This document shows positions 10,401 to 62,480 of a stretch of 64,000 bases of DNA, in pieces. The stretch lies in assembly GCF_024006985.1 (NCBI RefSeq), contig NZ_JAMXIB010000003.1, positions 62,001 through 126,000 of the forward strand, in the 5' to 3' direction. The notes under the pieces are model-generated. The model worked only from the letters and a program-made list of their open reading frames with translations, ran no database searches and was not told the origin of the DNA. The DNA comes from Robiginitalea marina. Its GTDB lineage: Bacteria > Bacteroidota > Bacteroidia > Flavobacteriales > Flavobacteriaceae. How positions within the stretch are numbered: position 1 is the stretch's first letter; each line of letters starts with the position of its first letter. The translations under genes and the position numbers were made by a program.

Positions 10401-13400
10401 TGGTGTTAGAGGCACCGAAGTCCCCGGCAACCGGCGTGACCCCATCCCCAACAACGGCGTATACAAAATTCCCGTCGCCCCCGGAAGCAGAGATGAAGAC
10501 GTCCGTATCCGTGGCACAGGCCGTAATCGGATCGGCGGAAGCGCTCAGGGCCAGTTCCGGATCAACAGTGATGTTCGCGCTGGCCGTACAGTTTTTGCCA
10601 TCGATAACCTCGACGGTGTAGGTGCCCGGGCCCAGTCCGCTGAAGACGTTGGATGCTCCGTAAGCACCTCCGTTGAGGCGATACAGGTAATTTCCGTCCC
10701 CGCCCGAAAGGATGGTGGCGGTAAGGGTAAGGCCTGTGGCATCATCATAGCACAGGTCGTTGGCCGTAAGCCCCAGTACAGGGGGTATTGCCGCGTCGAG
10801 GACGGTGTTTGCGAAGGCCACACACCCATTGGCGTCGCTCACTTCTGCCGTATACGTGCCGACCTGGGCAAGCCCGGTAAACACCCCGCTGGTGTTCGAC
10901 AACGTACTGGTGTCGGGCAGGGTCAGGGTATAGGTGAAACTGCCCCACCCTCCCGAGGCTGTCAGGGCAATGCTGCCATCTGCCGTACAGGTTGGCTGGG
11001 TAGCTACCAGGTTAAGGGCCAGGGTAGTGGATGGTTCCTCTACGGTCACTGAAGCCGTATCGGTACAGCCGGTATCGGAATCGGTGACGATGATATCGTA
11101 GGTTCCCGCAGCAAGGCCCGTCAGGTCAATCGCATTGGCAGTTTGTGCCGTGCCTGAAAATGCGGCCGGTCCGGTCACGGCATAATCGTAAGAAGAAGCA
11201 AATCCGGAAACACTGAACTGCACGGCCCCGTCGGCACCTCCCAAACAACTGACCGGGGAGATTTGCAGGCCCGAAACACCAATTGGGACCACCGGGGCGA
11301 TGGTAAAGTTTTCTTCATAGGTACAGCCATTGGCATCGGTTACGCGGAAGGTATAGGTGTCCGCGGCCAGTCCGGTGAAGGAGGCTGTATTTCCGGTGGT
11401 TGAACTGGCAGCAATCGCTGCCGGGGCAATAACCTCAAACACAAAGGGCGCAGTTCCGTCGGCAACGGATACCGAAACATCGGAAGTCAGGGCCGGGCAT
11501 TGCGGTTGTGTTGCGGTGAAGGAGAGGTCGCTCGGCAAACTTAGCGGATCTATGGTAATGGGGTTCGCCACCGTGGTGCACCCGTTGGCGTCCCGGACGG
11601 TTATGGAATAGGTCCCGTCGGCCAGGCCGGTAAAGGTTTCCGCCCCTGCTCCGCTGACAAAGTTTATCCCGTCAATGCTGTATTCATAAGGGGCCGTACC
11701 CCCGCTCACATTCTGTGCCTGGATGCTGCCGTCCTGCAGGCAGGTGTAGTCCTGTACCAGGGCGGCATCTGCCGCCAGGGTATTGGTAGGCCCGGAGATG
11801 GTGTAGTTTTCGAAAAACTCGCAGGAAGCGCTTCCCTTGCGGAAATCGAGGCGCACCATGTAATCGCCTTGAGGCAATCCCGGGAATGATCCGGAAGTGT
11901 TGGAAGCGATTTGCACGCCGTTTTCGTCGATGAGGAAAAAGGTGAGCTGGTATCCGTTCCGGTCGATCACATTAAAGGTAATGCTGCCACTGGAATCCCC
12001 GAAACACTGTTCGTCCACCACGGTCGTGGGGTCGTATTCCACCGGCGGCTCAAAGTAAATCGTCACCGGGTTTGAAATGTCGAAGCAGTTGTTGCGGTCG
12101 ACCACCACGAAAGTATAGGTCCCGGGGTCCCAGACATCAAAAATCACACTGGTCTGGAACTCAGAGGCCGGGATAGAGGCCGGGTCGGGATAGGAGATTT
12201 GAGTGACCCCCCCTTCGTCCACAAATTCCCAGATGGCATAGGTGTGGGGCGTGCGTCCCCCCGTGGATTCCATCAGGATGTTCCCTTCCCGGCAGGTAAT
12301 GTTCTGTGAAACACGTGCGGTCAGTTGCAGGTCAGAAAGGTCTTCAATAATGACCTGTTCTGTGTACGCGCAGCCGTCATCGGTGTTTACCGCCACGTCA
12401 TAGGTGCCCGGGGCCAGGTTGTCAAAGGTATAGTTGTTGTCTGTGGAAGGCCCGAAGGTGTCTATCGAATTTCCTCCCTGGGAGATCTCATAATAGTATT
12501 GCGGGTTTACGTCGAGTACGGAAATGCTGATAGACCCCAGCCCGCTGCAGTCCGCTGCCCGGGAGGTCAGGTCTACCTGGAAGTTCCGGCGCAGCACCCC
12601 GATGTTTTCGAGGCGGAAAACGCATCCACCGACCACACCCTGCTGGCGCATTTCCACCGAGTACGCCCCGTTGTTTGCAATGTCAAAGCTGGGGCCGTTT
12701 CCGGCAGCATAAGGCACCAGGATGTTGCCGTTGGTTGCATCCAACAGTTGGTATTCATAGTCTGCCGGCATGTTGGTAACCGTGATGTTCCCCGGGGTCG
12801 CACAAATAATGTCCGTAACATTGAACTGGGGGTCGAGCGGGTTCTTAAAGATGTTGAAATAGAATCGCGTAAAGCAGCCATTCTGGTAATTGATCACCAC
12901 CCGGTATTCCCCGGCATCCGAGGCCAGGAAGTCGTTTCCGGTGTCTACGGTGTTCCAGCCACAGGCGGAATTCTTGTTGGCACAGTCTTCCCCTGCGTCC
13001 AGGCAGCTGGCCTCGTCCAAACGTTCCCAAACAATGCTGGTAGCATCGGGGATGTTGATTTCGATAAGTTCCGTATCGTTGGCGCCGCAGAGGAAGATCT
13101 TCGGCAGCGGTTCCCCGTCATTGGGGCAGACCACGATCTCTCCCTCCACGGTATTGGAGGTGTCGTTGATTAGGGTTGCAATAGGGTTGGTCTGGGTCAC
13201 CCCGGGCAAGACCACGGTAATAAATTCCTGGAAGCCCTTGCATGGGTCGGCGACGATCTTATCGACGATGTAGGAGCCGGCTTCGGTCACCTGGAGGGTG
13301 CTTGGATCGCCGTCGGGGTCCCCGTCGCTGAGGGGGGTGTCCCCTGCGTCGATCTGTCCGTTTCCATTGTTGTCAAAATACCAGAGGTACTCGTCAAAAT

Positions 13401-15138
13401 TGTCCCCCGCATCCAGGACCACACTGTTCCCGCAGAGTTCCACGGTACGGCTGAAGTCGCAGTTTTCGAGGTCATCGAGCAGGAAGTTGGTGGCTCCCGG
13501 GGTTACAAAGCCGCAATTGTCAAAATCGGATACGCTGGGGTCATCCGTGATCTGGGCGCTGTTCAATGAGCCCTGATAGGTGGAATACGCCAGGTTTTCA
13601 ATTACATCGGTACAGGCATTGATAAAGTCAAAGCAGTTCTCCGCAACCTGCACGCGCATGCGGATACGGGCGACAGGATCCCCTTCCTGCACCAGGTTGT
13701 CGGGAATGCTGAAAACCACTTCACGAGTGGCGGCATTGTAGGTATAGGTGACTCCCGGGGGTAGCACCAGCGCAGCCTCATTGAGGGTGGTGTTGAGCGG
13801 GAGGACGTCCCGGATGGTGTAATTGATGGCATCGTCATTGCCGACGTTTTGAAAGGAAAGCACATAATCCAGGATCTGGCCGAGGTTTACCCCCTGCCCG
13901 GTTATGTCGTTCCCCCCGATATCTTCCACGGTTTTTTCCAGGACGATTTCCGGTTCGATGATTTCTACGGAGAAGGTCGAAAGAAAGGCCCCGTACCCGT
14001 CCCCGGAGGAGGTGAACTGCAGGGTTGCCCCGGTTTCATCGTTCGGCAGTACAGAATTAAACGGGTTGTTCAGCTCAAAAATATCCAGGTCCAGACCCAG
14101 GGTGTTGGTTCCATAGGGGGTCCTGGTTGGTACCTGGGCCCCATTGTTACTGATTGTGGAGTTAAAGAAATTGTTCGCCGGGTTCAGCCCGGTAGTGAGG
14201 TTAGTGAAACCGCCTACGGAATTGGCGCGAATCCGGAAGCGGTCATTGCTGATTCCCCGGTCCCCTTCCAGGGCCGCCACCCCAATGCGGGCGCGTACGG
14301 GAAAACCCGGGGGCAGGGTCCTGAACCCGGATACATTCACGTTAACGGCAGGGACGCTTCCCTGTACCCCGGCATACCCGTCGAAAGTCGAAATGAACTT
14401 CCCGGGTTCGTTGGGGTTTTCATAGATGACCACGAGTATCCAGCCGGCAGAACTCGACCCGTTTCTCCGGCCCCGGGTGGCCCGGATGTTGGCCACGGTG
14501 TATTCGCCGTTCGGATTGGGAAGGGATTGTACCAGGGAGGTGACATCCTTATAGCAGATAATGGGGGAATCCTTAAAGGAGTTGTTGATGTTTACGGGGT
14601 CGTACCCGTCAAAGATAATGTCGTCTTCTTCCCCTGGCGGGTCGGGGTTGGCGTCAGCAACCAGATCAATATAGGCGCCCCCGGGCATCCTGAACTTTAC
14701 CTGGTTCCAGTCTTCTATTCGGGGCGTACCGTCAAATTGGGCAGATGCGTTTGTGCTTCGGTCGTTGGGGTAGGTTGAGGCCCAGTATAACCCGGCATAG
14801 CGCACCAGGGAGCAGTCTACATCGGGTACGCTCAGTTGTGCACTGCTGGAGCTGAAGGTGGTTGGGTCCCCGTCGATGTCGATGTATTCCATCCACAACG
14901 AGTTGTTGTTCGCGGTCCCGTTATAGGGGGTGTTTGCCTGGGCGGGGTTGGTTTCGCTTGCCCTGTTGAGGATGTTGTTCCCCACAAAAAGGATATCGCC
15001 CCGGACTTCTATGTTCCCCCCCGCCAACCGGGGAGTAAAGGGTACTGCTTCCTGGGCAAACCCATGGAAGAAACCCCAGAATCCCAGGGAAAAGAGTAAA
15101 AGTAGTTTTGAAGAGAGCGTGCGTAAAACTGGTCTCAT
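1471..15138 (-). CDS. sprB: Giant SprB-type gliding/adhesion protein with T9SS type B sorting domain
   Basis: Cell-surface adhesin of 4555 residues. It has a signal peptide (about 1-29, ending HGFAQ), an N-terminal region of about 740 residues without the repeat (including a DUF11-like segment near 400-540 and an acidic DNNGNGQIDAGDTP motif that may bind calcium), then about 42 modules of roughly 85 residues (about 770-4465). The C-terminal sorting domain (about 4467-4555) starts IPNFFTPDGDGNNDFW, the gliding-motility-associated type B domain. Each module opens with a Cys after a Thr/Ser-rich strand, has a GG(T/S)xPYxY core and closes with AGTYxVxVxDxxGC. F. johnsoniae SprB is a moving T9SS-secreted surface adhesin that drives gliding on surfaces. 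The gene starts 5 bases after the upstream PorP/SPOR gene and is followed by an SprF-like gene. The reading frame is intact. It could also be a non-motility adhesin of the same family. Confidence 0.85.
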   Translation of the reverse strand: MRPVLRTLSSKLLLLFSLGFWGFFHGFAQEAVPFTPRLAGGNIEVRGDILFVGNNILNRASETNPAQANTPYNGTANNNSLWMEYIDIDGDPTTFSSSSAQLSVPDVDCSLVRYAGLYWASTYPNDRSTNASAQFDGTPRIEDWNQVKFRMPGGAYIDLVADANPDPPGEEDDIIFDGYDPVNINNSFKDSPIICYKDVTSLVQSLPNPNGEYTVANIRATRGRRNGSSSAGWILVVIYENPNEPGKFISTFDGYAGVQGSVPAVNVNVSGFRTLPPGFPVRARIGVAALEGDRGISNDRFRIRANSVGGFTNLTTGLNPANNFFNSTISNNGAQVPTRTPYGTNTLGLDLDIFELNNPFNSVLPNDETGATLQFTSSGDGYGAFLSTFSVEIIEPEIVLEKTVEDIGGNDITGQGVNLGQILDYVLSFQNVGNDDAINYTIRDVLPLNTTLNEAALVLPPGVTYTYNAATREVVFSIPDNLVQEGDPVARIRMRVQVAENCFDFINACTDVIENLAYSTYQGSLNSAQITDDPSVSDFDNCGFVTPGATNFLLDDLENCDFSRTVELCGNSVVLDAGDNFDEYLWYFDNNGNGQIDAGDTPLSDGDPDGDPSTLQVTEAGSYIVDKIVADPCKGFQEFITVVLPGVTQTNPIATLINDTSNTVEGEIVVCPNDGEPLPKIFLCGANDTELIEINIPDATSIVWERLDEASCLDAGEDCANKNSACGWNTVDTGNDFLASDAGEYRVVINYQNGCFTRFYFNIFKNPLDPQFNVTDIICATPGNITVTNMPADYEYQLLDATNGNILVPYAAGNGPSFDIANNGAYSVEMRQQGVVGGCVFRLENIGVLRRNFQVDLTSRAADCSGLGSISISVLDVNPQYYYEISQGGNSIDTFGPSTDNNYTFDNLAPGTYDVAVNTDDGCAYTEQVIIEDLSDLQLTARVSQNITCREGNILMESTGGRTPHTYAIWEFVDEGGVTQISYPDPASIPASEFQTSVIFDVWDPGTYTFVVVDRNNCFDISNPVTIYFEPPVEYDPTTVVDEQCFGDSSGSITFNVIDRNGYQLTFFLIDENGVQIASNTSGSFPGLPQGDYMVRLDFRKGSASCEFFENYTISGPTNTLAADAALVQDYTCLQDGSIQAQNVSGGTAPYEYSIDGINFVSGAGAETFTGLADGTYSITVRDANGCTTVANPITIDPLSLPSDLSFTATQPQCPALTSDVSVSVADGTAPFVFEVIAPAAIAASSTTGNTASFTGLAADTYTFRVTDANGCTYEENFTIAPVVPIGVSGLQISPVSCLGGADGAVQFSVSGFASSYDYAVTGPAAFSGTAQTANAIDLTGLAAGTYDIIVTDSDTGCTDTASVTVEEPSTTLALNLVATQPTCTADGSIALTASGGWGSFTYTLTLPDTSTLSNTSGVFTGLAQVGTYTAEVSDANGCVAFANTVLDAAIPPVLGLTANDLCYDDATGLTLTATILSGGDGNYLYRLNGGAYGASNVFSGLGPGTYTVEVIDGKNCTASANITVDPELALSASADPITACATDTDVFISASGGDGNFVYAVVGDGVTPVAGDFGASNTIPVSGAGDYDVYVRDNAGGADYCEAMVDLTITQDPPLAITPTPTDILCFGDNTGAIAIAASGGNAPYRYSIDDGATYQTGSNFVNLPAGTYAIRVQDAEGCEATDVVTLSEPAPLVAEAAITQPYTCLQPGEITVGGVTPTSGGSGSYQYRLNGGAWSAPTPGGIVYSGLSDGTFTVEVRDANAVGCVLSLPALILDPLPAEPSLGTTVAYSCDGTGEITVLPSDPTYTYSLDGGAFQASNVFAGVTPGNHTITVNYGSDCTTETAVVVESGLAFGAALLNQTGLLCAGDNSGQITFEVENFNAVNGFEYQVNGGGYSAPQTSSPVTLTGLAAGPYTIEIRDALDPGCAITLNATLAEPAPVVASAGITEEITCSNAGATITASATGGTPAYQYQLEDGLGAVITAYQASNVFTSIPAGDYLVRVRDINGCEDPIDVVITIAPPQALAFTATPTACYSGNNDGEIAVNVTDGNGLYLFNINGGPWMTPSPASSTTYTFGNLAAGTYDINVRDAYGCVGTPIAVTINPQLLAAAVLTADLSCIAPATIDVNASGGSGTYSYEWSDTGGTTWNTTGFTGNTFTTNTAATYIFRVTDTTTPTACIAVTGPVTVTPADTPVISAVTPTDILCNGALTGTLDVVIDTSIGLGPYTIEVFETNTSTSYGVQTTGLPAGDYEVTITDSKGCASLPFPVSIAQPDALSYDINLVPITCDATSGTTPGSITVENLTGGTGEYTYYLTGNNGYSASYPTTAGGEDYTFSILEFGIYEVDVVDANGCSVLTTNIIASPPDDLDIDVSTLTADCTTGGTAIVTVSSVVGSGNYEFAILETYSTPYSSTYQAPDVPGGDTATFTGLVPGITYTFVVHDLVTLCYYFETASAPINSPSGMVASAMAPRDISCTGAADGSISFDLDGFDPGATAVTWEIYNFQSNAPLTPVISGSQPVNPPAGPITLSNLGPLDQGVYYVLLTEVGGAFNGCSVATPEFTISQSTNLLQVTADSPENDTCNPNDGVITATAQFGTAPYEFQYLPATDPAPTAADPGWTSSTFANVEAGDYIVYVKDANDCIQSDAVTVALDPQPEIALSVVDECVAEGTFEVLVTLTSPGIAPYQISVNGSAWQAVAFNASNQFTVTGLSSGPGQSIAVRDVNGCGETDFFDIQPPLQFNASLTTLLDCEPAPNNNAQITIAVTSGSGSYDYEISGPVSQVRTALPGSPYVWDLASAPGTYTITVYDTGTSVPNCLGTVDVEVPPAVLPQFTEIHQDVTCNGDSDGFIRLFQTDTGINPLTFAISPAAGSFNAATNTFEGLPAGTYDITATGTNGCTEVITGITIGEPDPVAVPVPVVTPFACPAGNNPGNATILVDASGITGGSGTYAVYEFINDQGTPSTADDVVVQSGNNPLYAETNLAGGSYTINVYDSNGCVGSTTAIIPAFDELQGLTAAITNPLSCVPGADGEISLTATTASGNAALLEYSIDNGATWQASNTFGGLSAGTYIFLVRHTDTGCVLSVVETLTDPNTFDIAVDIVSDVTCFGTQSGAVTFELLDATYAGGFDWTIYDTNGTPGNTADDVVVDFGNSPTNGPTAPIALFAGEYRVEMTQTAAPQCTQTELFNIAGPPAALSAAVLVDPITCVGMDGRIEIYNVLGGWGGYTYYVGTSAPAGPGDYIASPVFDNLGAGTYQAWVIDARGCAELIQDNIVLADPAPITASLQVNQENCTAFQGEIEVVGVLGGQGGNYTYQLIRNGADFGAPQGSPVFSGLGEGSYEVRVNDQWGCSTVVGPEVLYDVLALVGTVVKPLDCTTTPEGEITIAAQGGSGNFDYTVTFPDGITTASNTTGVFTGLDQAGTYVFVVSDLDTTPNCTETVNVALVAPTPVTLAPATVTDVTCNGGSDGSIRVNLQPSGAGVNDNPPYTYVLYQGGIPIAGPQSDPLFSGLSAGNYVVEAISGLSCVAQQNVTIDEPPVLTLSASATAFACAPDNSVNTATVTAIAGGGTAPYLYSIDGVNYQSANTFGVADTGSTQNLSVSVRDANGCVEIVPVVLEPLNAFTAGVAQNVAITCLNPEEVLVTVTDDGNPANTYTFELLPLGNPNGILTGTPSNTSATFELSAPGSYTFRVTDNATGCYVLTAPYNIAPYDLIDVTASPVSPVVCFGDANGEASVEVSGYTGNYTYEVFTSAAVSTGITGSGSTATNPILVTGLSGGNYFIRVTQSDAPFCAEDSNVFTIASPDMALTASVSEVAGVTCTNDQGEIEVRPEGGYAPYDVVLVNTTTGQSYTASGSGGLLFTGLSAGNFTVAVTDVAGCVFNDTITLTEPLPISADITATPTTLACYGDENAAVSAINVSGGEGSYSYQLNVYDATGTTVTFTSGAQSNPVFANLGAGTYSITVTDGWNCGMETPQVVISEPTEVFATLVQTAQMTCAGNGEIVLGATGGTGPYEYSTDGVNYSPMSGGNTHTFSVADGTYQYYVRDSFGCEGDLSNQVSIEPVPPLALTIDTSAAMINCTGEATASLRALATGGLGNYQYELFGDAALSSLLAGPQQSGTFSGLGVGSYWIRVVSDDCEEVSSEIIITEPAPLQIDQESFTNITCAGESDGTITVAVSGGTGNILYAISPNLNQFDTVNTFTDLEAGVYDVIAQDVNGCFLTFQFTLTEPQPLEVSATATPEVCVGSEDGLIDLVISGGTAPYQTAFNSNADADFQPAQASFTGLASGTYVIFVRDAQGCETNVIATIEPGVNLNAVVTPVYECTGDLPDNYLEVVLEDQAMADQVMYALDSTDPADMQLDPDFTNLAPGPHYLAISHANGCVLTIDFEIQAFEPLTLALAQQNINEITAIAGGGVPEYTFYFNDDDNGADNTYYITETGTYTVRVVDQNGCVAEAQIFMEFIDIEIPNFFTPDGDGNNDFWIPRNMEGFPEILIKIYDRYGRVVAEEAYGSQGWDGTYDGRELPTGDYWYVIKLNGERDTREFVGHFTLYR
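1740..12830 (-). repeat. Tandem array of about 42 SprB-type protein modules
   Basis: Reading the translated adhesin by eye gives about 42 consecutive modules plus a degenerate final one that lacks the opening Cys. Each module has an opening T-C or similar, a G(x)I(x)V strand, GGxxPYxYxID, a FxGLxAGTY turn and a closing D(A/x)NGC. The modules diverge strongly from one another, so this is a protein-level repeat and not a near-identical DNA repeat. That makes recent expansion by slippage less likely across most of the array. Confidence 0.85.
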
Positions 15139-25314: not shown

Positions 25315-26373
25315 TCAGGCCGGTTTCATGGCTTCGGGGATTCGGGGGTTCATGATCCGGAACCACAGGGGCGGGACCAGGGAGAGGACCATGGAAGTAG
25401 GGTACCCAAAAGGCAGGTCCGGCGAGCGCTCGTGGTAATCGAGCACCTGGTATTTTTTTGAGGATTTATAGTGGTGGTCGCTATGCCTGGTAAGCTCATA
25501 AAGGACGATGCGCCCCACGATATGGTTGCTGTTCCACGAATGGATTTCCCTTACCCTTTCATAGCGTCCAGAGGGAAGTTTTTGCCTCAAAAGCCCGTAG
25601 TGCTCAATGTAATTAACTGTTTCCAGCAGCAGGAACCCGATTATCCCCGCACAGGTAAGCAATACAAGGCCCACGGGGCCAAAAAAGAAGTACAACAGGA
25701 CCAGGTAGGCAGCGCTGATAACCAGGTACCAGAACATGTCGTTTTGGAGCGAGAAGAATCCTTTCCCTGCCCTTCGGAGCAGGTCGGCCTGTATGCGCCA
25801 GGCGCTGCGGTACTGTCCGGCCACCGCGCTCGCCCAAAAGCTGTATACAGATTGGTTGTACCTGGCGGTTGCCGGGTCTTCGGGGGTGGCAGCGTTCAGG
25901 TGGTGGCCATAGTTGTGTTCGATGTAGAAGTGCATGTAGAAACTGGGAAGGAGCAGGAGCTTGCCCAGAAAGCGCTCCGGGGAACCTTGCCGGTGGCCCA
26001 GTTCGTGGCCTACATTGATACCGTTGGTCCCAAGGGCAATCCCCAGGGAAATGGCGATCCCCACGTACTCCCACCCGGTGGCAGCGCCATGGGTTACCGT
26101 TGAACCCGCCAACCACAGGAGCCCGAAAACAATAGGGACATTGGCGTATAGCATCCAGTCATAAACCCGGTTTCCGGCTACTTTTTCACTCCCATCGGGG
26201 GGAAGGTTTGAGGCATCCTGCGGGAGCATGATTTCAAGTATGGGAATAAGCACAAAGGCATACACCGGCGTAAGAAAAGTAAGGGCACCGCCTTCTGAGA
26301 TGCCTATAAAAGCAGTCAGCGGGATGCTTAGGGCAGCGAGGTATTTCAGCGAGGCCATAGGGCGTTTTAACAT
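25315..26373 (-). CDS. alkB: AlkB-type alkane/fatty-acid membrane hydroxylase
   Basis: Integral-membrane non-haem di-iron monooxygenase, 352 residues, with several hydrophobic segments. The four histidine-rich signatures of AlkB are all present: HELGHR near residue 124, EHNYGHH near 149, NYIEHYGL near 256 and LTRHSDHHYKS near 297. AlkB hydroxylates the terminal carbon of medium-chain alkanes with electrons from rubredoxin; homologues in marine flavobacteria may act on other lipids or hydrocarbons. No rubredoxin or rubredoxin reductase gene is adjacent. It is divergent from the DUF4175 gene, whose true start is 55 bases away. An internal ATG six codons in (MASLKYL) is an alternative start. Confidence 0.9.
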   Translation of the reverse strand: MLKRPMASLKYLAALSIPLTAFIGISEGGALTFLTPVYAFVLIPILEIMLPQDASNLPPDGSEKVAGNRVYDWMLYANVPIVFGLLWLAGSTVTHGAATGWEYVGIAISLGIALGTNGINVGHELGHRQGSPERFLGKLLLLPSFYMHFYIEHNYGHHLNAATPEDPATARYNQSVYSFWASAVAGQYRSAWRIQADLLRRAGKGFFSLQNDMFWYLVISAAYLVLLYFFFGPVGLVLLTCAGIIGFLLLETVNYIEHYGLLRQKLPSGRYERVREIHSWNSNHIVGRIVLYELTRHSDHHYKSSKKYQVLDYHERSPDLPFGYPTSMVLSLVPPLWFRIMNPRIPEAMKPA

Positions 26374-26428
26374 GTTTTTGGCCCGGGGTTTACGGACATC
26401 ACATTATCTTGGTACTAAAGATAATAAT

Positions 26429-29400
26429 TTGGACGCTTATCAGGGCATACTGGACAAACTCCAGGCCTTCATTTCCCGGTACTACCGGCGACAGATCATA
26501 AAGGGAAGTTTCCTGTTCCTTTTTTTCGGGGGCCTGGTATTCCTCCTGATCGGAGCGCTGGAGTATTTCCTTTGGTTATCCCCCGGAGTCAGGACGGGGC
26601 TTTTGGTCCTGGGGACCCTGGTTGAGCTCTTCTTTCTGGGAAGGTATGTGGCTGATCCGCTCCTCAGGCTTTTCCGATTAAAAAAGGGGTTGACCCCCAA
26701 GGAAGGGTCACGCCTGATCGGCAGGCATTTTCCCGAGGTAAGCGACCGCTTGTATAACCTGCTCGAACTGGCGGAAAGCCGGGAAAAATCGGAATTGTTG
26801 GAGGCCAGCATAGAACAGCGGTCCAGGGCCCTTCAAAGGATCCCCTTCCCCCAGGCGGTCAGGATGGGCGAAGCCTGGAAGTATTGGCGGTATGCCGGTA
26901 TCCCACTGGCCCTTATGGCGCTGATCTGGATAAGTGGCAAGGGGGTGGAATTTATGCGGTCCTATGAGCGGGTGGTAAATTATGGCATGGCTTATGACCC
27001 CCCGGCGCCATTTCGCTTTGAAGTGCTAAACGCAACCCTGAAAGGGCGGGAAGACCAACCTTTTGTCCTTAAGGTGCGCACCCCTGGCAGGTTGCAGCCG
27101 GAGTCGGTACGCGCGGTAATCGGGGGGAAGCAGGTAATCCTGGAAGATTTTGGGGATCATTTTGAACACACCTTTGTGCCTCCCCTGACACCGGTATCCT
27201 TTTATCTGGAAGGCGGGGGCATTACCTCGGCGGAATACCGGCTGGAAGTGATGCGCGTACCCCTGATAGACCGTTTTGAAATGCAGGTGGAGTATCCTGA
27301 ATACCTTTCGCTGGAGCGGGAAACGATAACAGGGAGCGGGAACCTGGTAGTTCCTGAAGGTAGCCGGATTACCTGGAAGATAGGGGCCGTACATGCCGAC
27401 ACCCTGGTGTATTCCGATGCCGATACGGTTCTCAGGAGCGTGGCGGAGCGCGGGGCATCCTTCAAAAGGCGGTTCTGGAGTGGCATGAAATACGCAATAA
27501 GCGCTTCAAATGCTGATTTTCAGGAGTTTGATAAGCTTGAATATCAGGTTGAGGTGATCCGGGATGAATCCCCGGAACTGGTGGTACGCATGGAACGGGA
27601 TTCCCTGAACCCGAACCTGTATTACTTCGCCGGAGAGGTTTCGGACGATCATGGAATCACATCGCTTAAGGTTTTCTGTTATCCGGACGGTAAACCGGGC
27701 GAAGTCCAGGTTTTGGACGTAGGGGCCCCGAAGACCACCTTGCATCGGTTTTACTATACCTTCCCGTCAGGGCTTCAGGTAAACCCGGAAACGGATTATA
27801 CCCTTTTTTTCCAGGTGGTGGACAACGACCGGCAACATGGGGGAAAGACCACTACCAGCAGGGAGTTTCCCCTGAAATTACTTTCGGGAGAAACCCTCCG
27901 CAAGCGGTTGCTTGAGGAGCAGGAGAAAGCGCTCGAAGGTTTGGAAAACACGGAGAAGGGACAAAAGGAAATCAGGGAGGGCCTCGAGGAATTCAGGCGA
28001 ACCCAGAGGGAAGACGGCTCCCTGCGGTTTGAGGACAAGCAAAAGTTGCGAAACTTCCTGAGCCGGCAGGAACAACAGGAACGGCTGATGGAAAAGTTCA
28101 GCAGGGAAGTTTCGGAGCGAATGGACGCAGGGGAAAAATCCCCTGAAGATGAGCTATTGCAGGAGCGCCTTGAGCGACAGGAACTCGAGGCGAGGAAGAA
28201 CGCCGAGCTGATGGATGAGCTCCAGAAGGTATTGGACCAGCTCGAGGGGGAGGAATTGCAGGAGCGCCTCGAAGAGTACTCCAAAACCCAGAACAGCAGG
28301 GAGCGGAGCCTTGAACAGCTATTGGAGCTTACCCGCCGGTACCTGGTGCAGGAAAAGTCCAGACAACTGCAAGGGGAACTGGAAAAACTCGCGGAGAAGC
28401 AACAGGCCCTGTCGGATAAGCCGCTGTCGGAACAACGGGGCAAAGGGGAGCAGGAAGAAGCAAATAAGGCATTTGATGCCTTACGGGAGGCCCTGGAGCG
28501 GCTGGAGGAACAGAACGCAGCCTTGAAGAAGCCATTGCCCTGGAAACGCGATCAGGAAAAGGAGCAATCCGCCGCCAAAGATCAGCAGGAAGCCCTCGAC
28601 GGCATTAAGGGCGGGGAAGAAGAGCCGCAAGACAAGAATGACGGGCAGGTACGGAATAAGCAGAAGTCGGCTGCCCGCAAAATGAAAGAACTGTCTGGCC
28701 AACTCGGAGCAGGGGCTGCCATGGGAGGAGCCCAAAGCCTCGAGGAAGACACGGAAATGCTTCGGCAGATCCTCGACAACCTCGTTATTTTTTCGCTGGA
28801 GCAGGAAGCGCTTTTCGAGGGGATGCGAAGGGAGGGCGAACAGGGGTTGTCACAACCGGGGGACGTTAGGAAGCAGCAACAACTCAGGGACCTGTTTGGC
28901 CATGTGGACGACAGTCTTTTTGCCCTTTCCCTGCGAAGGGCAGAGCTTTCAGAGCTTATTAACACGCAGATCACGGAGGTGTATTACAATATAGACAGGG
29001 CACTGGAGGCCCACGGCAATGGTGATTGGTATAAGGGACTGTCGTACCAGCAGTACGTGGTAACGGCCACCAACGAATTGGCGGCCTTTCTTGCCGATAT
29101 CCTCGATAATATGATGGAATCCCTTATGCCGGGTAGCGGCAGCGGTGCAGGCGGCGATTTTCAACTACCGGATATCATCCAAAACCAGGAACAGTTGCAG
29201 AAAATGATGGGTGAGGGCCAGGGGCAGGGCTCCAAGCCCGGGAAGTCGCCCGGAGAAGACGGCCAACAGGGGAAGGGAAAAGGCGATGCTGACGGAGAAG
29301 GGGAGCGCGAAGGAAATAAAGAGGGCAAGGGCCCTGGAAAGGGCGGGAAGAACCCATCCGGCCAAGGGGGAGGACAAAGCGGGCAGGAGGGCTCAGGGGG

Positions 29401-29851
29401 CTTTTCCGAAGCAGAATACAGCCGCATATACGAGATATATAAGCGGCAACAACAGATACGGGCGGCACTGGAAAAGCAACTGGAGGATATGATGGAAACC
29501 GACAGGAAGCTGGCAGAGCAAATTGCCAGGGAAATGGAGTTGTTTGAGAACGATATTTTGTCGAGTGGTATAACCGAACGGACAGCCGAACGGCTAAACC
29601 GCATCCGGCAACAGTTGCTTAAGCTCGAGAATGCGTCCGTGGAACAGGGCGAAACCGAAGAGCGGCAAAGCCGGGTAAACCGCGATCAGTTTTCGGCCCC
29701 GGTATTTGATAAACCGGAACCGTTTGAGAGAAAGGGGGCGGAGAGTGAACTATTAAACCGGGAGGCCTTACCTTTGCGCAGAAAATACAGGGAAAAGGTT
29801 AAAGAATATTTCAGGGAGAATGATACGCTATCACTACCAAACCGACTTTAA
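26429..29851 (+). CDS. DUF4175 family large membrane protein
   Basis: Two N-terminal membrane segments (about 25-45 and 55-75), a third near 170, then a large beta-rich, probably periplasmic part. A very long charged helical region follows (about 560-900, rich in E, Q, R, K: GLEEFRRTQREDGSLRFEDK and similar). A Gly/Gln/Lys low-complexity stretch lies at about 990-1060 and a final helical part after it. The function is unknown. I place the start at the TTG at 26429 (product MDAYQGILDKLQAF, 1140 residues): the family usually begins this way, and the upstream ATG at 26372 gives an unrelated extension that runs antisense into alkB. A TATCTTGG at 26405 could be the -7 element. It overlaps ybeY by 32 bases, so the two are translationally linked. 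Confidence 0.75.
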   Translation: MDAYQGILDKLQAFISRYYRRQIIKGSFLFLFFGGLVFLLIGALEYFLWLSPGVRTGLLVLGTLVELFFLGRYVADPLLRLFRLKKGLTPKEGSRLIGRHFPEVSDRLYNLLELAESREKSELLEASIEQRSRALQRIPFPQAVRMGEAWKYWRYAGIPLALMALIWISGKGVEFMRSYERVVNYGMAYDPPAPFRFEVLNATLKGREDQPFVLKVRTPGRLQPESVRAVIGGKQVILEDFGDHFEHTFVPPLTPVSFYLEGGGITSAEYRLEVMRVPLIDRFEMQVEYPEYLSLERETITGSGNLVVPEGSRITWKIGAVHADTLVYSDADTVLRSVAERGASFKRRFWSGMKYAISASNADFQEFDKLEYQVEVIRDESPELVVRMERDSLNPNLYYFAGEVSDDHGITSLKVFCYPDGKPGEVQVLDVGAPKTTLHRFYYTFPSGLQVNPETDYTLFFQVVDNDRQHGGKTTTSREFPLKLLSGETLRKRLLEEQEKALEGLENTEKGQKEIREGLEEFRRTQREDGSLRFEDKQKLRNFLSRQEQQERLMEKFSREVSERMDAGEKSPEDELLQERLERQELEARKNAELMDELQKVLDQLEGEELQERLEEYSKTQNSRERSLEQLLELTRRYLVQEKSRQLQGELEKLAEKQQALSDKPLSEQRGKGEQEEANKAFDALREALERLEEQNAALKKPLPWKRDQEKEQSAAKDQQEALDGIKGGEEEPQDKNDGQVRNKQKSAARKMKELSGQLGAGAAMGGAQSLEEDTEMLRQILDNLVIFSLEQEALFEGMRREGEQGLSQPGDVRKQQQLRDLFGHVDDSLFALSLRRAELSELINTQITEVYYNIDRALEAHGNGDWYKGLSYQQYVVTATNELAAFLADILDNMMESLMPGSGSGAGGDFQLPDIIQNQEQLQKMMGEGQGQGSKPGKSPGEDGQQGKGKGDADGEGEREGNKEGKGPGKGGKNPSGQGGGQSGQEGSGGFSEAEYSRIYEIYKRQQQIRAALEKQLEDMMETDRKLAEQIAREMELFENDILSSGITERTAERLNRIRQQLLKLENASVEQGETEERQSRVNRDQFSAPVFDKPEPFERKGAESELLNREALPLRRKYREKVKEYFRENDTLSLPNRL

Positions 29852-30239
29852 GCTCGGGGAGGAAGACAAATATACCGATTGGATTTTGAAGAGTGTTTCA
29901 AGGGCCGGGCGCAAGGTCTCAGGGCTGGATTATATTTTTTGTGACGACGAGGCCTTGTTGGAAATGAACCGGAACTATCTTGACCATGATTATTATACTG
30001 ACATCCTCACTTTTGATTATGGCACCCCCACGGAGTTGAAAGGGGACCTTTTTCTCTCGGTAGACCGCATTAGAGATAATGCTGAGCAGCTGGGGGTTGC
30101 TTTCGAAGAGGAAGTCAGGAGGGTGATGATCCACGGCGTATTGCACCTGATGGGATATACCGACCATTCCGAAAAAGAAAAGGCGGGAATGCGGGCCAGG
30201 GAAGAGGAATGCCTGGTATTGTTCCACGTGAAACATTGA
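29820..30239 (+). CDS. ybeY: Endoribonuclease YbeY, rRNA maturation factor
   Basis: Zinc-dependent single-strand endoribonuclease involved in 16S rRNA 3' end maturation and 70S quality control. The 139 residues fit the family, and the zinc-binding signature HGVLHLMGYTDH (about residues 106-117) is complete. The region TDILTFDYGTP is also typical. It starts inside the end of the DUF4175 gene and ends 4 bases before mnmG. Its last seven codons (LVLFHVKH) are written in DNA that also forms a parS-like 16-mer, so the C-terminus may be shaped by that site. Confidence 0.95.
   Translation: MIRYHYQTDFKLGEEDKYTDWILKSVSRAGRKVSGLDYIFCDDEALLEMNRNYLDHDYYTDILTFDYGTPTELKGDLFLSVDRIRDNAEQLGVAFEEEVRRVMIHGVLHLMGYTDHSEKEKAGMRAREEECLVLFHVKH
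30220..30235. promoter_or_regulatory. parS-like ParB-binding site 1 (end of ybeY)
   Basis: TGTTCCACGTGAAACA matches all 16 positions of the chromosomal parS consensus TGTTNCACGTGAAACA known from Bacillus subtilis and conserved widely. It lies within the last codons of ybeY, directly before mnmG. Function as a ParB loading site is inferred from the exact match and from the second site at 32111. Confidence 0.75.
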
Positions 30240-30243
30240 GGCT

Positions 30244-32112
30244 ATGTTTGGGGAGAAATATGATGTAATTGTAGTGGGCGGCGGTCACGCCGGGTGTGAG
30301 GCCGCGGCTGCCGCGGCGAATATGGGATCCAGGACACTCCTGGTTACCATGAACCTACAGACCATCGGACAAATGTCCTGTAATCCGGCCATGGGGGGTA
30401 TTGCGAAAGGACAGATTGTTCGGGAGATCGATGCGCTGGGCGGGTATTCGGGTATTGTGTCGGACCGTTCGGCCATCCAGTTTAAAATGCTTAACAAAAG
30501 CAAGGGGCCTGCCATGTGGAGTCCGAGGACACAGAATGACAGGATGCGTTTTGCAGAACATTGGCGGCTTGCCCTGGAAGCTACCCCCAACCTGGATTTC
30601 TACCAGGAGATGGTTCGTGAATTGCTTATCGAGCAGGATAAGGTCGTGGGGGTTCGGACCTCCCTCGGCATAGACATCTACGGGAAGTCCGTGATCCTTA
30701 CCAATGGGACGTTTTTGAACGGACTGATCCATATAGGCGAAAAGCAGTTTGGTGGTGGCCGGGCAGGGGAAAGCGCCGCCAGGGGTATTACGGAGCAGCT
30801 GTTAGGGTTTGGCTTTGCTTCAGGACGGATGAAAACCGGCACCCCGCCCAGGGTCGACGGCCGCAGCCTGGATTATTCCCGCATGGTCCCGCAGCCCGGG
30901 GATGAGGCCCCTGGAAGGTTTTCATATACTGAAACCCCCTTGTTGCAGCGGCAATTACCCTGCCACATGACCTATACCAGCCCGGAGGTCCATGATTTAT
31001 TGAGGGAGGGATTTGATCGTTCCCCCATGTTTAATGGGAATATTCAAAGCACAGGCCCCAGGTATTGCCCTTCCATTGAAGACAAAATCCACCGGTTTCA
31101 CGAAAAGGAGCGCCATCAGATTTTTGTGGAGCCCGAAGGCTGGGAGACAGTGGAGGTCTATGTTAACGGCTTTTCCACTTCGCTGCCTGAAGACGTGCAG
31201 TTTCGGGCCTTGCGATCGGTAGCCGGATTTGAGAAAGTAAAGCTCTTCCGGCCGGGGTATGCTATAGAATATGATTATTTCCCCCCCACCCAATTGAGAC
31301 ATACCCTGGAGACCAAGCTGATCGGAAACCTGTATTTTGCCGGACAAATTAACGGCACCACAGGTTATGAGGAGGCTGCTTCACAGGGCCTGATGGCTGG
31401 AATCAATGCGCATCTGAAGGTAAATGAGAAGGAGCCTTTTCTATTGCGCAGGGATGAAGCCTATATCGGGGTGCTTATTGACGACCTGATTACCAAAGGG
31501 ACCGAGGAACCGTATCGCATGTTTACTTCCCGGGCCGAATACCGCACCCTCCTGCGCCAGGATAATGCAGACCTCAGGCTTACGGAGCGGTCGTATGCCC
31601 TGGGCCTTGCCGGGGAGGATAGGATGCGCCGGATGCTGCAGAAAAAGGAAAAGTCCCAGGAACTCGTGCAGTTCTTTAAGGATACTAGTTTCGTGCCCGA
31701 CCAAATCAACCCCATCCTGGAGGAAGTGGGCTCCAGGAAAGTGGCTCAGGGCGACAAGCTCTTCAAGGTTTTTTCGCGACCTAAAGTGCAAATGTCGCAT
31801 TTAATGCGCCTGGAGGGGGTCGCTACCTTCGTCGCGGACCATGAAATGGATGAGGAGGTGCAGGAGCAGGCCGAAATTGAGGTCAAATATTCCGGGTACA
31901 TTGAGAAGGAACGAAACAATGCCGACAAATTGCAGCGTCTGGAACATTTAAAGATCCCGGATGATTTTGAATACGACAAGCTCTCCTCCCTTTCGTTCGA
32001 AGCACGGGAAAAGCTTTCTGCGATTCGTCCGGCCACGGTCTCTCAGGCCTCAAGGATAAGTGGTGTTTCACCGAGCGACATCAGTGTTTTGCTGGTCTAT
32101 CTCGGGAGATAG
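30244..32112 (+). CDS. mnmG: tRNA uridine 5-carboxymethylaminomethyl modification enzyme MnmG
   Basis: FAD-dependent enzyme that, with the GTPase MnmE, installs the (carboxymethyl)aminomethyl group on wobble U34 of several tRNAs. The 622 residues are standard. The FAD-binding VVGGGHAGCEAAAAAA (residues 9-24), the two family signatures GPRYCPSIEDK (about 271-281) and TGYEEAASQGLMAG (about 377-390), and the helical C-terminal domain are present. The older name is gidA; in many bacteria gidA sits beside the replication origin and parAB. It lies 4 bases after ybeY and is bracketed by two parS-like sites. Confidence 0.97.
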   Translation: MFGEKYDVIVVGGGHAGCEAAAAAANMGSRTLLVTMNLQTIGQMSCNPAMGGIAKGQIVREIDALGGYSGIVSDRSAIQFKMLNKSKGPAMWSPRTQNDRMRFAEHWRLALEATPNLDFYQEMVRELLIEQDKVVGVRTSLGIDIYGKSVILTNGTFLNGLIHIGEKQFGGGRAGESAARGITEQLLGFGFASGRMKTGTPPRVDGRSLDYSRMVPQPGDEAPGRFSYTETPLLQRQLPCHMTYTSPEVHDLLREGFDRSPMFNGNIQSTGPRYCPSIEDKIHRFHEKERHQIFVEPEGWETVEVYVNGFSTSLPEDVQFRALRSVAGFEKVKLFRPGYAIEYDYFPPTQLRHTLETKLIGNLYFAGQINGTTGYEEAASQGLMAGINAHLKVNEKEPFLLRRDEAYIGVLIDDLITKGTEEPYRMFTSRAEYRTLLRQDNADLRLTERSYALGLAGEDRMRRMLQKKEKSQELVQFFKDTSFVPDQINPILEEVGSRKVAQGDKLFKVFSRPKVQMSHLMRLEGVATFVADHEMDEEVQEQAEIEVKYSGYIEKERNNADKLQRLEHLKIPDDFEYDKLSSLSFEAREKLSAIRPATVSQASRISGVSPSDISVLLVYLGR

Positions 32113-32126
32113 TTCCACGTGGAACA
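32111..32126. promoter_or_regulatory. parS-like ParB-binding site 2 (end of mnmG)
   Basis: AGTTCCACGTGGAACA contains the perfect 14-base palindrome GTTCCACGTGGAAC, the core of parS variants of the Pseudomonas type. It overlaps the stop codon of mnmG by two bases. Together with site 1 it brackets the gene. Confidence 0.7.
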
Positions 32127-47117: not shown

Positions 47118-48119
47118 ATGGCCACACCTGGAACCAAACCGCCCGAGACTTCCGACGAGATAGATTTGGGGCAACTTTTCAAACTGATTGGAAAGGGATT
47201 CCAAAAGATGTTTCGCGGTTTCCTTTTGATCTACCTCTATTTCAAAAGGAATTTTTTCTGGTTTGCCGGCCTGGGGGTTTTGGGGGTGCTCACGGGGTAT
47301 TTAGTCAACCGACTCGTGGAGCCACTGCAAAAGCTGGACGTTATAGTTACCCCAAACCTCGACAATAGGAATTACCTCTATGATGTAGTGGCCGAATTAC
47401 AATCAAACCTTAAAGCTAAAGATACTGCCTTTCTAAGATCTCAGGGAATACCGGTCAATAGTGTTGAGGGCTTTGATTTGGAAATCACCGACTTGAGGAC
47501 TAAAAGCACCAATACTCCGGGGGATTCTGAGCTCTTGGAGTTGATGAAGGATTTTGGCAATTCCCCGGCGATCGGAGATCTTGTGAGGGAAGCGTTAAGG
47601 GAAAAAACCACCAAAGATCACAGGATAACTTTCTATTTCAAGGATCCCATTGCCGGGGAAGCAATTGCCGGGAAGTTCATGGAGTATTTCAATACCAATG
47701 CGTATTATTCCCAATTATTGGAAACGCAAAGGAAAAACGCACAAGAACGGATTCAGCGAAACGATTCCCTGGTAAAACAAATAGACCAGCTCATCAATAA
47801 CTATACTGAGCAGATGAACCGGGAGCAGGGAGGAACCGAGGGTCGCCTGGTCCTTGAAAACCAGGAACCCCTGAATGTGCCTTCCCTGTTTGAGTTGAAA
47901 AACCAACTCATTAGGGATACGGAAGCCAAACGACTGGAACTCGACATGAAACAAGAGGCGATTACCATCGTGAGCTTTGGGAAGCCGCATAAAGTTATCA
48001 AACCATTGGCCCTGAAAAACATCGTCTTGTTCCCCTTGTTGTTCATTGGAGGCTTTCTGGTGGTTTCCATGGTGCGGTACCTGAACAGGAAGTCTATGGA
48101 ATTAATTCCAAACAAATAA
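47118..48119 (+). CDS. Wzz-type chain-length determinant protein
   Basis: A 333-residue inner-membrane protein with the polysaccharide co-polymerase layout: a cytoplasmic start, a first membrane segment (about 50-68, FFWFAGLGVLGVLTGYLV), a large periplasmic helical part (about 70-295) and a second membrane segment (about 298-321, NIVLFPLLFIGGFLVVSM) with a short basic tail. There is no kinase domain, so it is a PCP-1-like protein and not a Wzc tyrosine kinase. It should set the chain length of the polymer made by the Wzy-like protein encoded downstream. Base composition falls from GC-rich to AT-rich within the gene. It opens the polysaccharide locus and ends 2 bases before rfbB. Confidence 0.78.
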   Translation: MATPGTKPPETSDEIDLGQLFKLIGKGFQKMFRGFLLIYLYFKRNFFWFAGLGVLGVLTGYLVNRLVEPLQKLDVIVTPNLDNRNYLYDVVAELQSNLKAKDTAFLRSQGIPVNSVEGFDLEITDLRTKSTNTPGDSELLELMKDFGNSPAIGDLVREALREKTTKDHRITFYFKDPIAGEAIAGKFMEYFNTNAYYSQLLETQRKNAQERIQRNDSLVKQIDQLINNYTEQMNREQGGTEGRLVLENQEPLNVPSLFELKNQLIRDTEAKRLELDMKQEAITIVSFGKPHKVIKPLALKNIVLFPLLFIGGFLVVSMVRYLNRKSMELIPNK

Positions 48120-48121
48120 TT

Positions 48122-49183
48122 ATGACTTACGAAAAATCTATTCTGATTACCGGAGGAGCGGGTTTTATCGGTTCTCATGTTGTTCGGCACTTCATCAATA
48201 AATATCCGCAAGAGTACAGAATCTTTAATCTGGATGCATTGACCTATGCAGGAAACCTAGAAAACCTAAGGGATGTTGAGACCGCTCCTAATTATAACTT
48301 TATTCACGGCGATATTGTTAATGAGACCTTCATTAGAGAACTTTTTAAGGAGTTTTCATTTAATGGTATCATTCACTTAGCCGCGGAATCCCATGTGGAC
48401 AGATCTATTGCCGATCCAATGGCATTTGTAAAAACGAACATAATAGGTACGGTTAATTTATTAAATGCAGCACGGGATTGCTGGGAGCCCAGTCCTGAGG
48501 GCAAGCTTTTCTACCACGTCAGCACAGACGAGGTTTATGGTTCACTTGGGAATACAGGCCTTTTTACCGAGGAAACCTCCTATAGCCCAAATTCACCCTA
48601 TTCAGCTTCCAAGGCAAGCTCAGATCACTTTGTCAGGGCATATGGTGAAACTTATGGTCTCCCTTTTGTAGTTAGCAATTGCTCCAATAATTACGGACCC
48701 TACCACTTCCCTGAAAAGTTAATCCCATTGTTCATAAATAATATTATCAATTATAAACCATTGCCCGTCTATGGAGATGGAAATTACACCCGGGATTGGC
48801 TTTTTGTAAAGGATCATGCGGTTGCCATAGATCTGGTTTTTCACAAGGGGAAACAGGGAGAAACTTACAATATTGGAGGGTTTAATGAATGGAAAAACAT
48901 TGATCTCGTGCGATTGCTTTGTCAGAAGATGGACAAAAAACTGGGTCGGCCCGAGGGGACCTCAGAAGGGCTAATTACATTTGTAAAAGATCGGCCGGGT
49001 CATGATTTTCGATATGCAATAGATGCCACTAAAATCAATCAGGAACTTGGATGGAAGCCCTCGGTGACTTTTGAACAAGGACTGGAACAAACCATAGATT
49101 GGTATTTGTATAATCAACAATGGCTCGACCATGTTACTTCTGGAGAATACCGGGAGTACTATCAAAAGCACTATTTAGACTAG
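48122..49183 (+). CDS. rfbB: dTDP-glucose 4,6-dehydratase
   Basis: Extended short-chain dehydrogenase that converts dTDP-glucose to dTDP-4-keto-6-deoxyglucose; 353 residues. NAD-binding [11 protein letters not shown] (about 10-20), [11 protein letters not shown], the catalytic tyrosine in [13 protein letters not shown] (about 158-170) and [14 protein letters not shown], all diagnostic for RmlB/RfbB. Its product can feed both dTDP-rhamnose (rfbCD) and the 4-amino sugar branch (DegT and NeuD-like genes). It is followed by rfbA after 19 bases. Confidence 0.96.
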
Positions 49184-49202
49184 AAAGGGAAATCCAGACA
49201 GA

Positions 49203-50069
49203 ATGAAGGGAATAATATTAGCCGGAGGATCTGGCACGCGACTACACCCCATCACCCTTGCGGTAAGCAAACAACTAATGCCCATATACGACAAGCCCAT
49301 GATTTACTACCCCTTGTCGACCCTCATGTATGCGGGCATTCGCGAAATTTTAATTATCTCAACACCAAAAGATCTCCCGCTGTTTCGGGACTTGTTGGGA
49401 GATGGTTCACGGTATGGTTGTTCATTTGACTATGCCGTTCAAGATGCCCCGAACGGTCTTGCTGAAGCGTTTCTCATAGGCTCGGAATTCGTAGGCGGCG
49501 ATAAAGTGGCTTTGATCCTCGGAGACAATATCTTTTACGGGTCGGGTTTAGCGCGTTTGCTTCAGGCCAATAATGACCCTGACGGGGGAATTATTTATGC
49601 ATACCGCGTTCACGATCCTGAACGATATGGGGTTGTGGAGTTTGATAAGAACGGCCGGGTAATAAGTATTGAGGAAAAGCCCCAACATCCCAAATCGAAC
49701 TATGCGGTGCCGGGGATCTATTTTTACGATAATGACGTATTGGAAATTGCGCGCAACATCAAGCCCAGCGCGCGGGGGGAACTTGAAATTACAGACGTCA
49801 ACAGGGAGTATTTACAGCGCGAGAAATTGAATGTAAGCATCTTGGACCGAGGAACTGCCTGGCTGGATACTGGCACCTTTCAGTCCCTGATGCAGGCTTC
49901 CCAATTTGTTGAGGTGATCGAGGAACGTCAGGGGCTTAAAATTGGGGCGATTGAGGCAGCTGCCTTTGAAATGGGCTTTATTGACAAATCCCAATTCCTC
50001 AGTCTTGCCGAGCCTTTAATGAAGAGTGGCTATGGCAGAAGCTTAATGGGTATTATAGAAAAGGACTAA
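49203..50069 (+). CDS. rfbA: Glucose-1-phosphate thymidylyltransferase
   Basis: Makes dTDP-glucose from dTTP and glucose-1-phosphate, the first step of the dTDP-sugar branch; 288 residues, the usual length. The nucleotidyltransferase signature [20 protein letters not shown]-like (residues 8-27), GDNIFYGSG near 108, [20 protein letters not shown] near 160 and GTAWLDTGT are present. Its stop overlaps the rfbC start by one base (TAATG). Confidence 0.96.
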
Positions 50070-50614
50070 TGAAGTTTGAGAAAACCGGACTGGAAGGTTG
50101 TTTTATTATTGAGCCAACTGTTTTTGAGGATAACAGGGGCTATTTTATGGAGACGTTCAGCCAACGCGAATTTGAGGCGAATATAGGCCGAGTGAATTTC
50201 GTCCAGGACAACCAATCTCATTCCAAAAGAGGCGTTGTCCGAGCCCTCCACTATCAGGTAGGAGATGCCGCTCAGGCCAAACTGGTGCGTGTGCTACAGG
50301 GGCGCGTTCTCGATGTGGCAGTAGATCTTCGAAAGGATTCCTTAACGTTTGGGGAGCATATAGCTGTTGAACTTTCAGAAACCAATAAAAAGCAGATTTT
50401 TATCCCGCGCGGATTCGCGCATGGATTTGTGGCACTGAGTGAAACGGCAGAATTCTTTTATAAGTGCGATAATTTTTATGATAAAAATGCTGAGGCGGGC
50501 ATTATCTATAGCGACCCCGATTTGAAGATTGACTGGGTGCTCTCTGAATCAGACATTACACTTTCCTTAAAAGACGCGGCCCTGCCATTGCTTAAGAATG
50601 CAAGGCTCTCATGA
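50069..50614 (+). CDS. rfbC: dTDP-4-dehydrorhamnose 3,5-epimerase
   Basis: Cupin-fold epimerase converting dTDP-4-keto-6-deoxyglucose to the 4-keto-rhamnose form; 181 residues. The catalytic histidine region GVVRALHYQ (about 58-66), DVAVDLRKDSLTFG and FIPRGFAHGFVALSE (about 111-125) are typical. It overlaps rfbA by one base and rfbD by four, indicating translational coupling. Confidence 0.96.
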   Translation: MKFEKTGLEGCFIIEPTVFEDNRGYFMETFSQREFEANIGRVNFVQDNQSHSKRGVVRALHYQVGDAAQAKLVRVLQGRVLDVAVDLRKDSLTFGEHIAVELSETNKKQIFIPRGFAHGFVALSETAEFFYKCDNFYDKNAEAGIIYSDPDLKIDWVLSESDITLSLKDAALPLLKNARLS

Positions 50615-51468
50615 AAGTACTTGTTACAGGAAGCCAAGGACAACTGGGGAAGAGCATAGAGAGGCTCCGGAAAGGATTCCCATCGCTGGATTTTGTATTT
50701 ACCACGCGAGAGGTATTAGACATTACCAATCCAGACATGCTTAGTGCTGCTTTCTCTGAACATTCACCGGATTATTGCATTAATTGCGCCGCCTATACGG
50801 CGGTTGACAAAGCAGAAGAAGAGCCAGCCCAGGCATTTTCAATCAATGCTGATGGCGTTGGCTTTTTGGCAAAATGCTGTCAGGAATACAACACTACCCT
50901 GATCCACCTGTCTACTGATTTCGTCTTTGACGGCAAATCTCCCAGGCCTTATACTGAGGAAGATACTCCGGCTCCTCTAAGCGTTTATGGGCGCAGCAAA
51001 TGGGAAGGTGAAAGGATAATAGAGTCTACCCTGCATCGCTATTTCATTATCAGAACCTCCTGGGTATTCTCGGAATACGGGCGTAATTTTCTAAAAACGA
51101 TGCTTAAGCTGAGTAAGGAGAGAGATGAGCTGAAAGTGGTGGATGATCAGATTGGCAGACCGACCTATGCCGTTGATCTGGCAAGATATATACTCGAACT
51201 TATAGAAAGCGCAACACCACCGATGGGACTAGTGCACTTCGCAAATCAAGGGGAGTATAGTTGGTATGGTTTTGCCCAAGAAATTTTCAGGAAAGCGGGG
51301 ATTTTCGTAAAGCTTCACCCAATTAAATCCAAGGATTATCCCGCGTTGGCAAAAAGGCCCGTATATTCTGTTTTAAATACAGCAAAAGCGGAGCAAATTT
51401 TGGGAACCAGCATACCAAGAGTTGAAAACGCAATTGAAAGGTGCTTACAACAACTTCATGTGGAATAA
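50611..51468 (+). CDS. rfbD: dTDP-4-dehydrorhamnose reductase
   Basis: NAD(P)H-dependent reductase completing dTDP-L-rhamnose synthesis; 285 residues. Dinucleotide-binding VTGSQGQLGKSI (residues 5-16), NCAAYTAVDKAEEEP, STDFVFDGKSPRPYTEED and the YxxxK motif in VYGRSKWEGE (about 126-135) are present. It overlaps rfbC (4 bases) and the following lipoprotein gene (11 bases). Having rfbABCD complete means rhamnose is very probably a sugar of the polymer. Confidence 0.95.
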   Translation: MKVLVTGSQGQLGKSIERLRKGFPSLDFVFTTREVLDITNPDMLSAAFSEHSPDYCINCAAYTAVDKAEEEPAQAFSINADGVGFLAKCCQEYNTTLIHLSTDFVFDGKSPRPYTEEDTPAPLSVYGRSKWEGERIIESTLHRYFIIRTSWVFSEYGRNFLKTMLKLSKERDELKVVDDQIGRPTYAVDLARYILELIESATPPMGLVHFANQGEYSWYGFAQEIFRKAGIFVKLHPIKSKDYPALAKRPVYSVLNTAKAEQILGTSIPRVENAIERCLQQLHVE

Positions 51469-51967: not shown

Positions 51968-51981
51968 CAAGATAGCCGTAT

Positions 51982-55138: not shown

Positions 55139-55140
55139 TT

Positions 55141-56256: not shown

Positions 56257-56270
56257 GATGAATTACAGTT

Positions 56271-57521: not shown

Positions 57522-57525
57522 TACC

Positions 57526-58692: not shown

Positions 58693-58704
58693 AAGTATTT
58701 TCTG

Positions 58705-61049: not shown

Positions 61050-61086
61050 CAGACAAAATATATAGTAAACTATTATTTCAGTAGAT

Positions 61087-61093
61087 TAGGAGG
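61087..61093 (+). promoter_or_regulatory. Strong Shine-Dalgarno-like sequence upstream of the initiating transferase
   Basis: TAGGAGG, an uncommonly good anti-16S match for this phylum, lies 15 bases before the ATG at 61109. The spacing is long for use at that ATG, and the nearer ATG at 61104 opens a frame that stops after 12 codons. Function is uncertain. Confidence 0.35.
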
Positions 61094-61108
61094 CAATTTG
61101 TCAATGAC

Positions 61109-62461: not shown

Positions 62462-62472
62462 TTTTGTCGGGG

Positions 62473-62480
62473 TATCTTTG
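62473..62480 (+). promoter_or_regulatory. Possible -7 element upstream of the UDP-glucose dehydrogenase gene (distal)
   Basis: TATCTTTG matches TAnnTTTG exactly, 102 bases before the ATG at 62582. No -33 TTG at the right distance. It is one of two candidates for this gene. Confidence 0.35.

Follow-up and report, generated by a model that had tools for sequence, protein, structure and literature searches.

The ybeY-mnmG locus and its two palindromes

The window, that is, the whole 64,000-nucleotide stretch of Robiginitalea marina DNA that was analysed, contains two parS-like sequences at the ends of two genes encoded on the same strand:

29820-30239, + strand: ybeY (rRNA maturation RNase YbeY); TIGR00043, 99.9 bits against a cut-off of 45; PF02130 match at residues 32-132
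30220-30235, + strand: parS-like site 1, TGTTCCACGTGAAACA, in frame in the final codons of ybeY (LFHVKH)
30244-32112, + strand: mnmG (gidA), between both sites; TIGR00136, 835 bits against a cut-off of 524.85
32111-32126, + strand: parS-like site 2, AGTTCCACGTGGAACA, a perfect 14-base palindrome overlapping the mnmG stop codon

The identities of both genes are supported by Pfam and NCBIfam. Site 1 lies entirely within ybeY, the product of which ends in VLFHVKH, and has 0 mismatches (16/16) to the parS consensus TGTTNCACGTGAAACA. Site 2 takes in the final two bases of the mnmG stop codon and contains the 14-base core, matching TGTTYCACGTGRAACA at 15/16 positions; the palindrome formed by the inner 14 bases of site 2, GTTCCACGTGGAAC, is perfect. 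The sites start 1891 bp apart. The description in an earlier note made from the sequence alone, of a full consensus match at 30220 and a perfect 14-base palindrome at 32111, positioned 1.9 kb apart at the ends of ybeY and mnmG, is therefore accurate.

Within the window, a scan allowing three mismatches returned four matches, both strands of sites 1 and 2, versus a mean of 1.26 in shuffled sequences, and 8 of 100 shuffles reached four matches, so that the count at this level is weak evidence for the sites. In the genome (3,249,261 bases), the exact core GTTYCACGTGRAAC occurs at only two places, sites 1 and 2, with none in the backward control and, by our own arithmetic, about 0.05 expected by chance in 3.25 Mb. 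The earlier note had proposed a genome scan with up to two mismatches. This identified five places, as did the backward control, and the three additional places were dropped as noise.

Elsewhere in the window, there is an unusually long ORF of 4555 aa on the - strand (1471-15138), and a 1207-aa ORF (26228-29851, + strand) that shares bases with the beginning of ybeY and has no Pfam match at E 0.001. The G+C content falls to 0.41-0.44 at positions 48001-64000, compared with about 0.54 over the remainder of the window, and this stretch may be an acquired region.

Conservation of the mnmG address

Nine of ten genomes in the genus have exactly two sites, spaced by 1889-1891 bp; the tenth, 74% complete, has none. 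At the family level, the motif is present in 388 of 397 genomes, with six backward-control hits in total, and a hand count of the table gave two sites in 331 genomes, one in 17, three or more in 40 and none in 9. Among those listed, the 31 two-site family genomes outside the genus have spacings of 1894-2046 bp. Across the phylum, the motif is present in 363 of 395 genomes.

To what extent the address is shared is apparent from the genes at the sites. Either mnmG or ybeY is present at 16/16 genus loci, 30/30 family loci and 23/30 class-level loci, with one of the four sites in the class-level genome L103 located within mnmG. Among the seven class-level exceptions, L113, L114, L116 and L117, four out of five loci from one other family of the class, have their parS-like sites in or beside a threonine synthase gene. 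The best 80 of at least 590 MnmG relatives, all named loci picked by MnmG similarity alone, were tabulated by exact core. Of their 188 sites, 187 are in the 1300 bp preceding mnmG or the 600 bp following it, one is elsewhere and none is within mnmG; 76 loci have a site in the upstream interval, 70 in the downstream interval and 67 in both. Named Flavobacterium loci have up to 8 sites around mnmG and genomes of the genus coded g128 have up to 10, whereas the Tenacibaculum and Polaribacter loci have no site within 4 kb after mnmG. The number of sites is thus flexible, and their place is fixed.

Seven of the nine family genomes with no site still encode ParB, and the two without ParB are 75-76% complete. 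Five of the nine are at least 90% complete and at least one of these, G132 (a single contig of 2.7 Mb, 99% complete), has ParB. With one mismatch allowed, G378 shows two near-misses at a distance of 1907 bp, against four hits in its control; G014 has two about 23 kb apart (control 0), G132 has one (control 2) and G222 has one (control 1). The remaining five have no near-miss with one mismatch. A Capnocytophaga MAG locus (L213) has neither a site nor a ybeY upstream of mnmG. Two MAG contigs, L170 and L192, are titled Limnohabitans and Chitinophaga pinensis, but their MnmG sequences group within Flavobacterium and these titles are probably wrong for these contigs.

As both sites closely flank a single operon and one of them, in many genomes, is positioned just before mnmG, the palindromes could instead bind some other CACGTG-type regulator of ybeY-mnmG expression, rather than ParB. 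This is very unlikely, as the motif conforms to the parS consensus down to the tolerated Y/R positions, site 2 is downstream of the gene, and the sites are near the skew-inferred origin (see below); the class-level loci away from ybeY-mnmG, four of them at threonine synthase, also fit an operon switch less well than a centromere able to move. An RNA function, with the sites forming hairpins in the ybeY-mnmG transcript that serve in its termination or processing, appears extremely improbable. Folding of GTTCC-ACGT-GGAAC into a 5-bp stem and a 4-base loop is conceivable, but neither site has a terminator-like match (the region has two elsewhere, versus 2.9 expected from shuffles) and the would-be loop, ACGT, is fixed as strongly as the stem, although in loci that were tabulated by exact core. 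We return below to the reading as parS sites.

The C-terminus of YbeY

Site 1 is in frame within ybeY in all eight genus relatives for which the ybeY side was compared. The earlier note had suggested comparing the C-terminal codons of ybeY and the site across flavobacteria, and predicted that the end of YbeY is constrained by the DNA site as well as by the protein. In a table of 81 rows (the window plus 80), ybeY was readable in 78, and in 40 of these it ends in FHV[EK] or FHME. The parS codons TTY-CAC-GTG-RAA encode 38 of the 40 tails, versus 1.9 of 40 expected from mnmG codon use in the same genomes, with the caveat that the 40 rows are related and so are not 40 independent trials. The other two, L187 and L210, are from a Kordia MAG and an uncultured relative. 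Their YbeY tail reads FHMEQ, the GTG of parS having become ATG (CAC-ATG), so that the exact site in ybeY is lost and the site after mnmG is retained.

The only freedoms in the tail are those of the parS pattern, TTC or TTT and GAA or AAA, the latter exchanging Glu and Lys with a reversal of charge. In two more rows the site is translated in a different frame (VSRET). No site is present in ybeY in the remaining 36 rows, and 35 of them have a site between ybeY and mnmG. Placement inside or outside ybeY requires a minimum of six changes on the MnmG tree, a quick tree on which the direction of change is not given and starred branches force fewer.

That FHV[EK] is a selected feature of the YbeY protein, with the resemblance to parS being secondary, would be consistent with 38 of the 40 in-gene sites being in one reading frame, and with the retention of FHME in two relatives after the exact site was lost. 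We regard this as highly improbable given that there is no silent change of the His or Val codon among the 38 FHV tails, that Glu and Lys are swapped, that two rows use another frame, and that the tail is missing from 36 rows, almost all of which have an intergenic site. The tail is also beyond the Pfam YbeY match, which covers residues 32-132 of 139 aa. Of the prediction in the earlier note, the constraint by DNA is upheld and the constraint by protein is not. Judged from these sequence comparisons, it is the DNA site, not the peptide, that drives the FHV[EK] tail; the tail is a by-product, with a site inside the reading frame fixing its codons. Across many genera, how a protein ends is here clearly dictated by a DNA site.

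ParB, ParA and Smc

One ParB scores over the cut-off in the genome (TIGR00180, 158 bits versus 58.45), encoded on contig C49 directly after a gene for a ParA-type ATPase; the absence of ParB, which the earlier note had listed as an outcome that would count against its proposal, is therefore not the case. Solved ParB and Spo0J chains align with this ParB, and so do Noc chains. A simple naming is complicated by the NCBIfam models, of which Noc gives the higher score (231 bits, short of its cut-off of 315) and parB_part the lower (157 bits, over its cut-off of 58.45). The Pfam ParB C-terminal dimerisation domain is just below threshold. At two HTH positions, which presumably help to separate recognition of parS from recognition of Noc sites, the protein keeps Arg and Gly; the residues there in the solved Noc chain 7nfu are Gln and Arg.

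Smc is over the cut-off of TIGR02168 in none of the ten genus genomes, versus 10 of 14 controls, in a test that used this model alone. With no Smc over the cut-off, the usual loading of Smc by ParB is probably absent, in its ordinary form, from this genus. This raises the question of what role ParB has near the origin, and with which partner, in cells without ordinary Smc.

Position relative to the origin, dnaA and parAB

The window is located on contig C33, parB on C49 and dnaA on C11. Over the initial 57 kb of C33 the cumulative GC skew fluctuates noisily around zero; it is lowest near C33:57500, a point about 34 kb upstream of ybeY, and then rises almost throughout. G003, a single-contig relative from the genus, has parS at 757-759 kb and dnaA at 2.78 Mb. 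Its sampled skew is mostly negative as far as about 788 kb, of mixed sign between there and 848 kb, positive up to about 2.5 Mb and then negative to mixed. Origins were placed by a step fit to sampled stretches, with bootstraps that assume equal arms, and denser sampling near parS in G003 may sharpen the fit for that genome. The fitted origins are at 840-850 kb in G003 (parS at 757-759 kb), 2100-2190 kb in G152 (parS at 2030) and 2360-2510 kb in G780, Polaribacter sp. BM10 (parS at about 2449). Bootstrap median distances from origin to parS are 22, 170 and 69 kb in G003, G152 and G780, with 95% of bootstraps within 82, 490 and 818 kb, respectively, and the fits are loose in G152 and G780 (R2 0.57 and 0.37). 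The corresponding median distances from origin to dnaA are 1529, 2100 and 1105 kb. As anticipated in the earlier note, which had suggested mapping the hits relative to the GC-skew minimum, parS is near the skew-inferred origin in its own contig and in three complete relatives, loosely so in two. Clusters of E. coli-type DnaA boxes were also sought near the skew switch; in neither C33 nor 160 kb of G003 did their density exceed 1 per 500 bp, and oriC was not found.

In all 16 of the genomes examined that are complete or in a single contig, of which two are related only at the level of class and 13 have lengths rounded to 0.1 Mb, parS is at least 1.04 Mb from dnaA and at least 0.65 Mb from the best ParB. 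A second, weaker ParB-family hit is 0.46 Mb from parS in G262. The site in G772 is not at mnmG. Only mnmG, and neither parAB nor dnaA, has stayed with parS. Thus, of the origin-proximal layout envisaged in the earlier note, with gidA next to parS and parAB, the association of mnmG with parS near the skew origin is borne out and adjacency to parAB is not. The motif appears to mark the origin where dnaA does not, although six of the 16 genome sequences start at dnaA.

A probable two-site centromere

On the evidence of sequence and position, the two palindromes are very probably the parS sites of a chromosomal ParABS system, with no other exact site in the genome. They match the consensus, ParB and ParA are encoded, and the sites are near the skew origin. 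The proximity of parAB to parS or the origin, which is usual but not universal, is lacking here, as is the Smc condensin on which ParB-Smc loading depends. The best reading is a minimal two-site ParABS centromere, which would be of a known kind with an unusually fixed address. By analogy with known ParABS biology, ParB produced from the parAB operon elsewhere would load at both sites as a CTP-dependent clamp and slide over ybeY-mnmG and neighbouring DNA, and ParA would move the ParB-DNA complex to the daughter cells soon after replication of the nearby origin.

A further, doubtful possibility is that in Flavobacteriaceae the centromere unit is the bracketed mnmG itself, with two putative ParB loading sites ~1.9 kb apart defining a fixed ParB-coated segment and so tying mnmG transcription to segregation. 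This would apply to cells without ordinary Smc and with parAB and dnaA about 1 Mb away and, if true, it would explain why sites have multiplied on both sides of mnmG in Flavobacterium, almost never inside. The putative two-site centromere in itself provides a simple, testable centromere address for a large bacterial family. As a chromosomal parS it would be ordinary in kind; what sets it apart is the fixed address, the minimal number of sites, the distance to parAB and dnaA, and the dictated protein end.

Comparison with known systems

Chromosomal ParABS systems with TGTTNCACGTGAAACA parS sites include Spo0J/Soj of B. subtilis and ParAB of Caulobacter. The palindrome, the ParA-ParB gene pair and the location of the sites near the skew origin are the same here, but there are only two exact sites, fixed around mnmG, parAB is about 1 Mb away and the genus has no Smc over the cut-off. 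In B. subtilis, there is a parS within the spo0J coding sequence. Both that parS and site 1 overlap a reading frame; here, in contrast, the overlap is with the C-terminal end of ybeY, extends over many genera and has at least six changes into or out of the gene on the MnmG tree. None of the literature matches listed describes parS at ybeY-mnmG in Flavobacteriaceae, and the 2007 parS survey of Livny and co-workers could already include some of these sites.

A study of gut bacteria, including two Bacteroidetes, describes parS clusters that mark skew origins away from dnaA, with no known condensin in the two Bacteroidetes (PMC10197239). Common to those clusters and the sites described here is that parS is found with the skew origin and dnaA not always so. 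No conserved gene address is given in the passages of that study considered here (PMC10197239), whereas in this family parS is found throughout at ybeY-mnmG, with codon overlap in ybeY.
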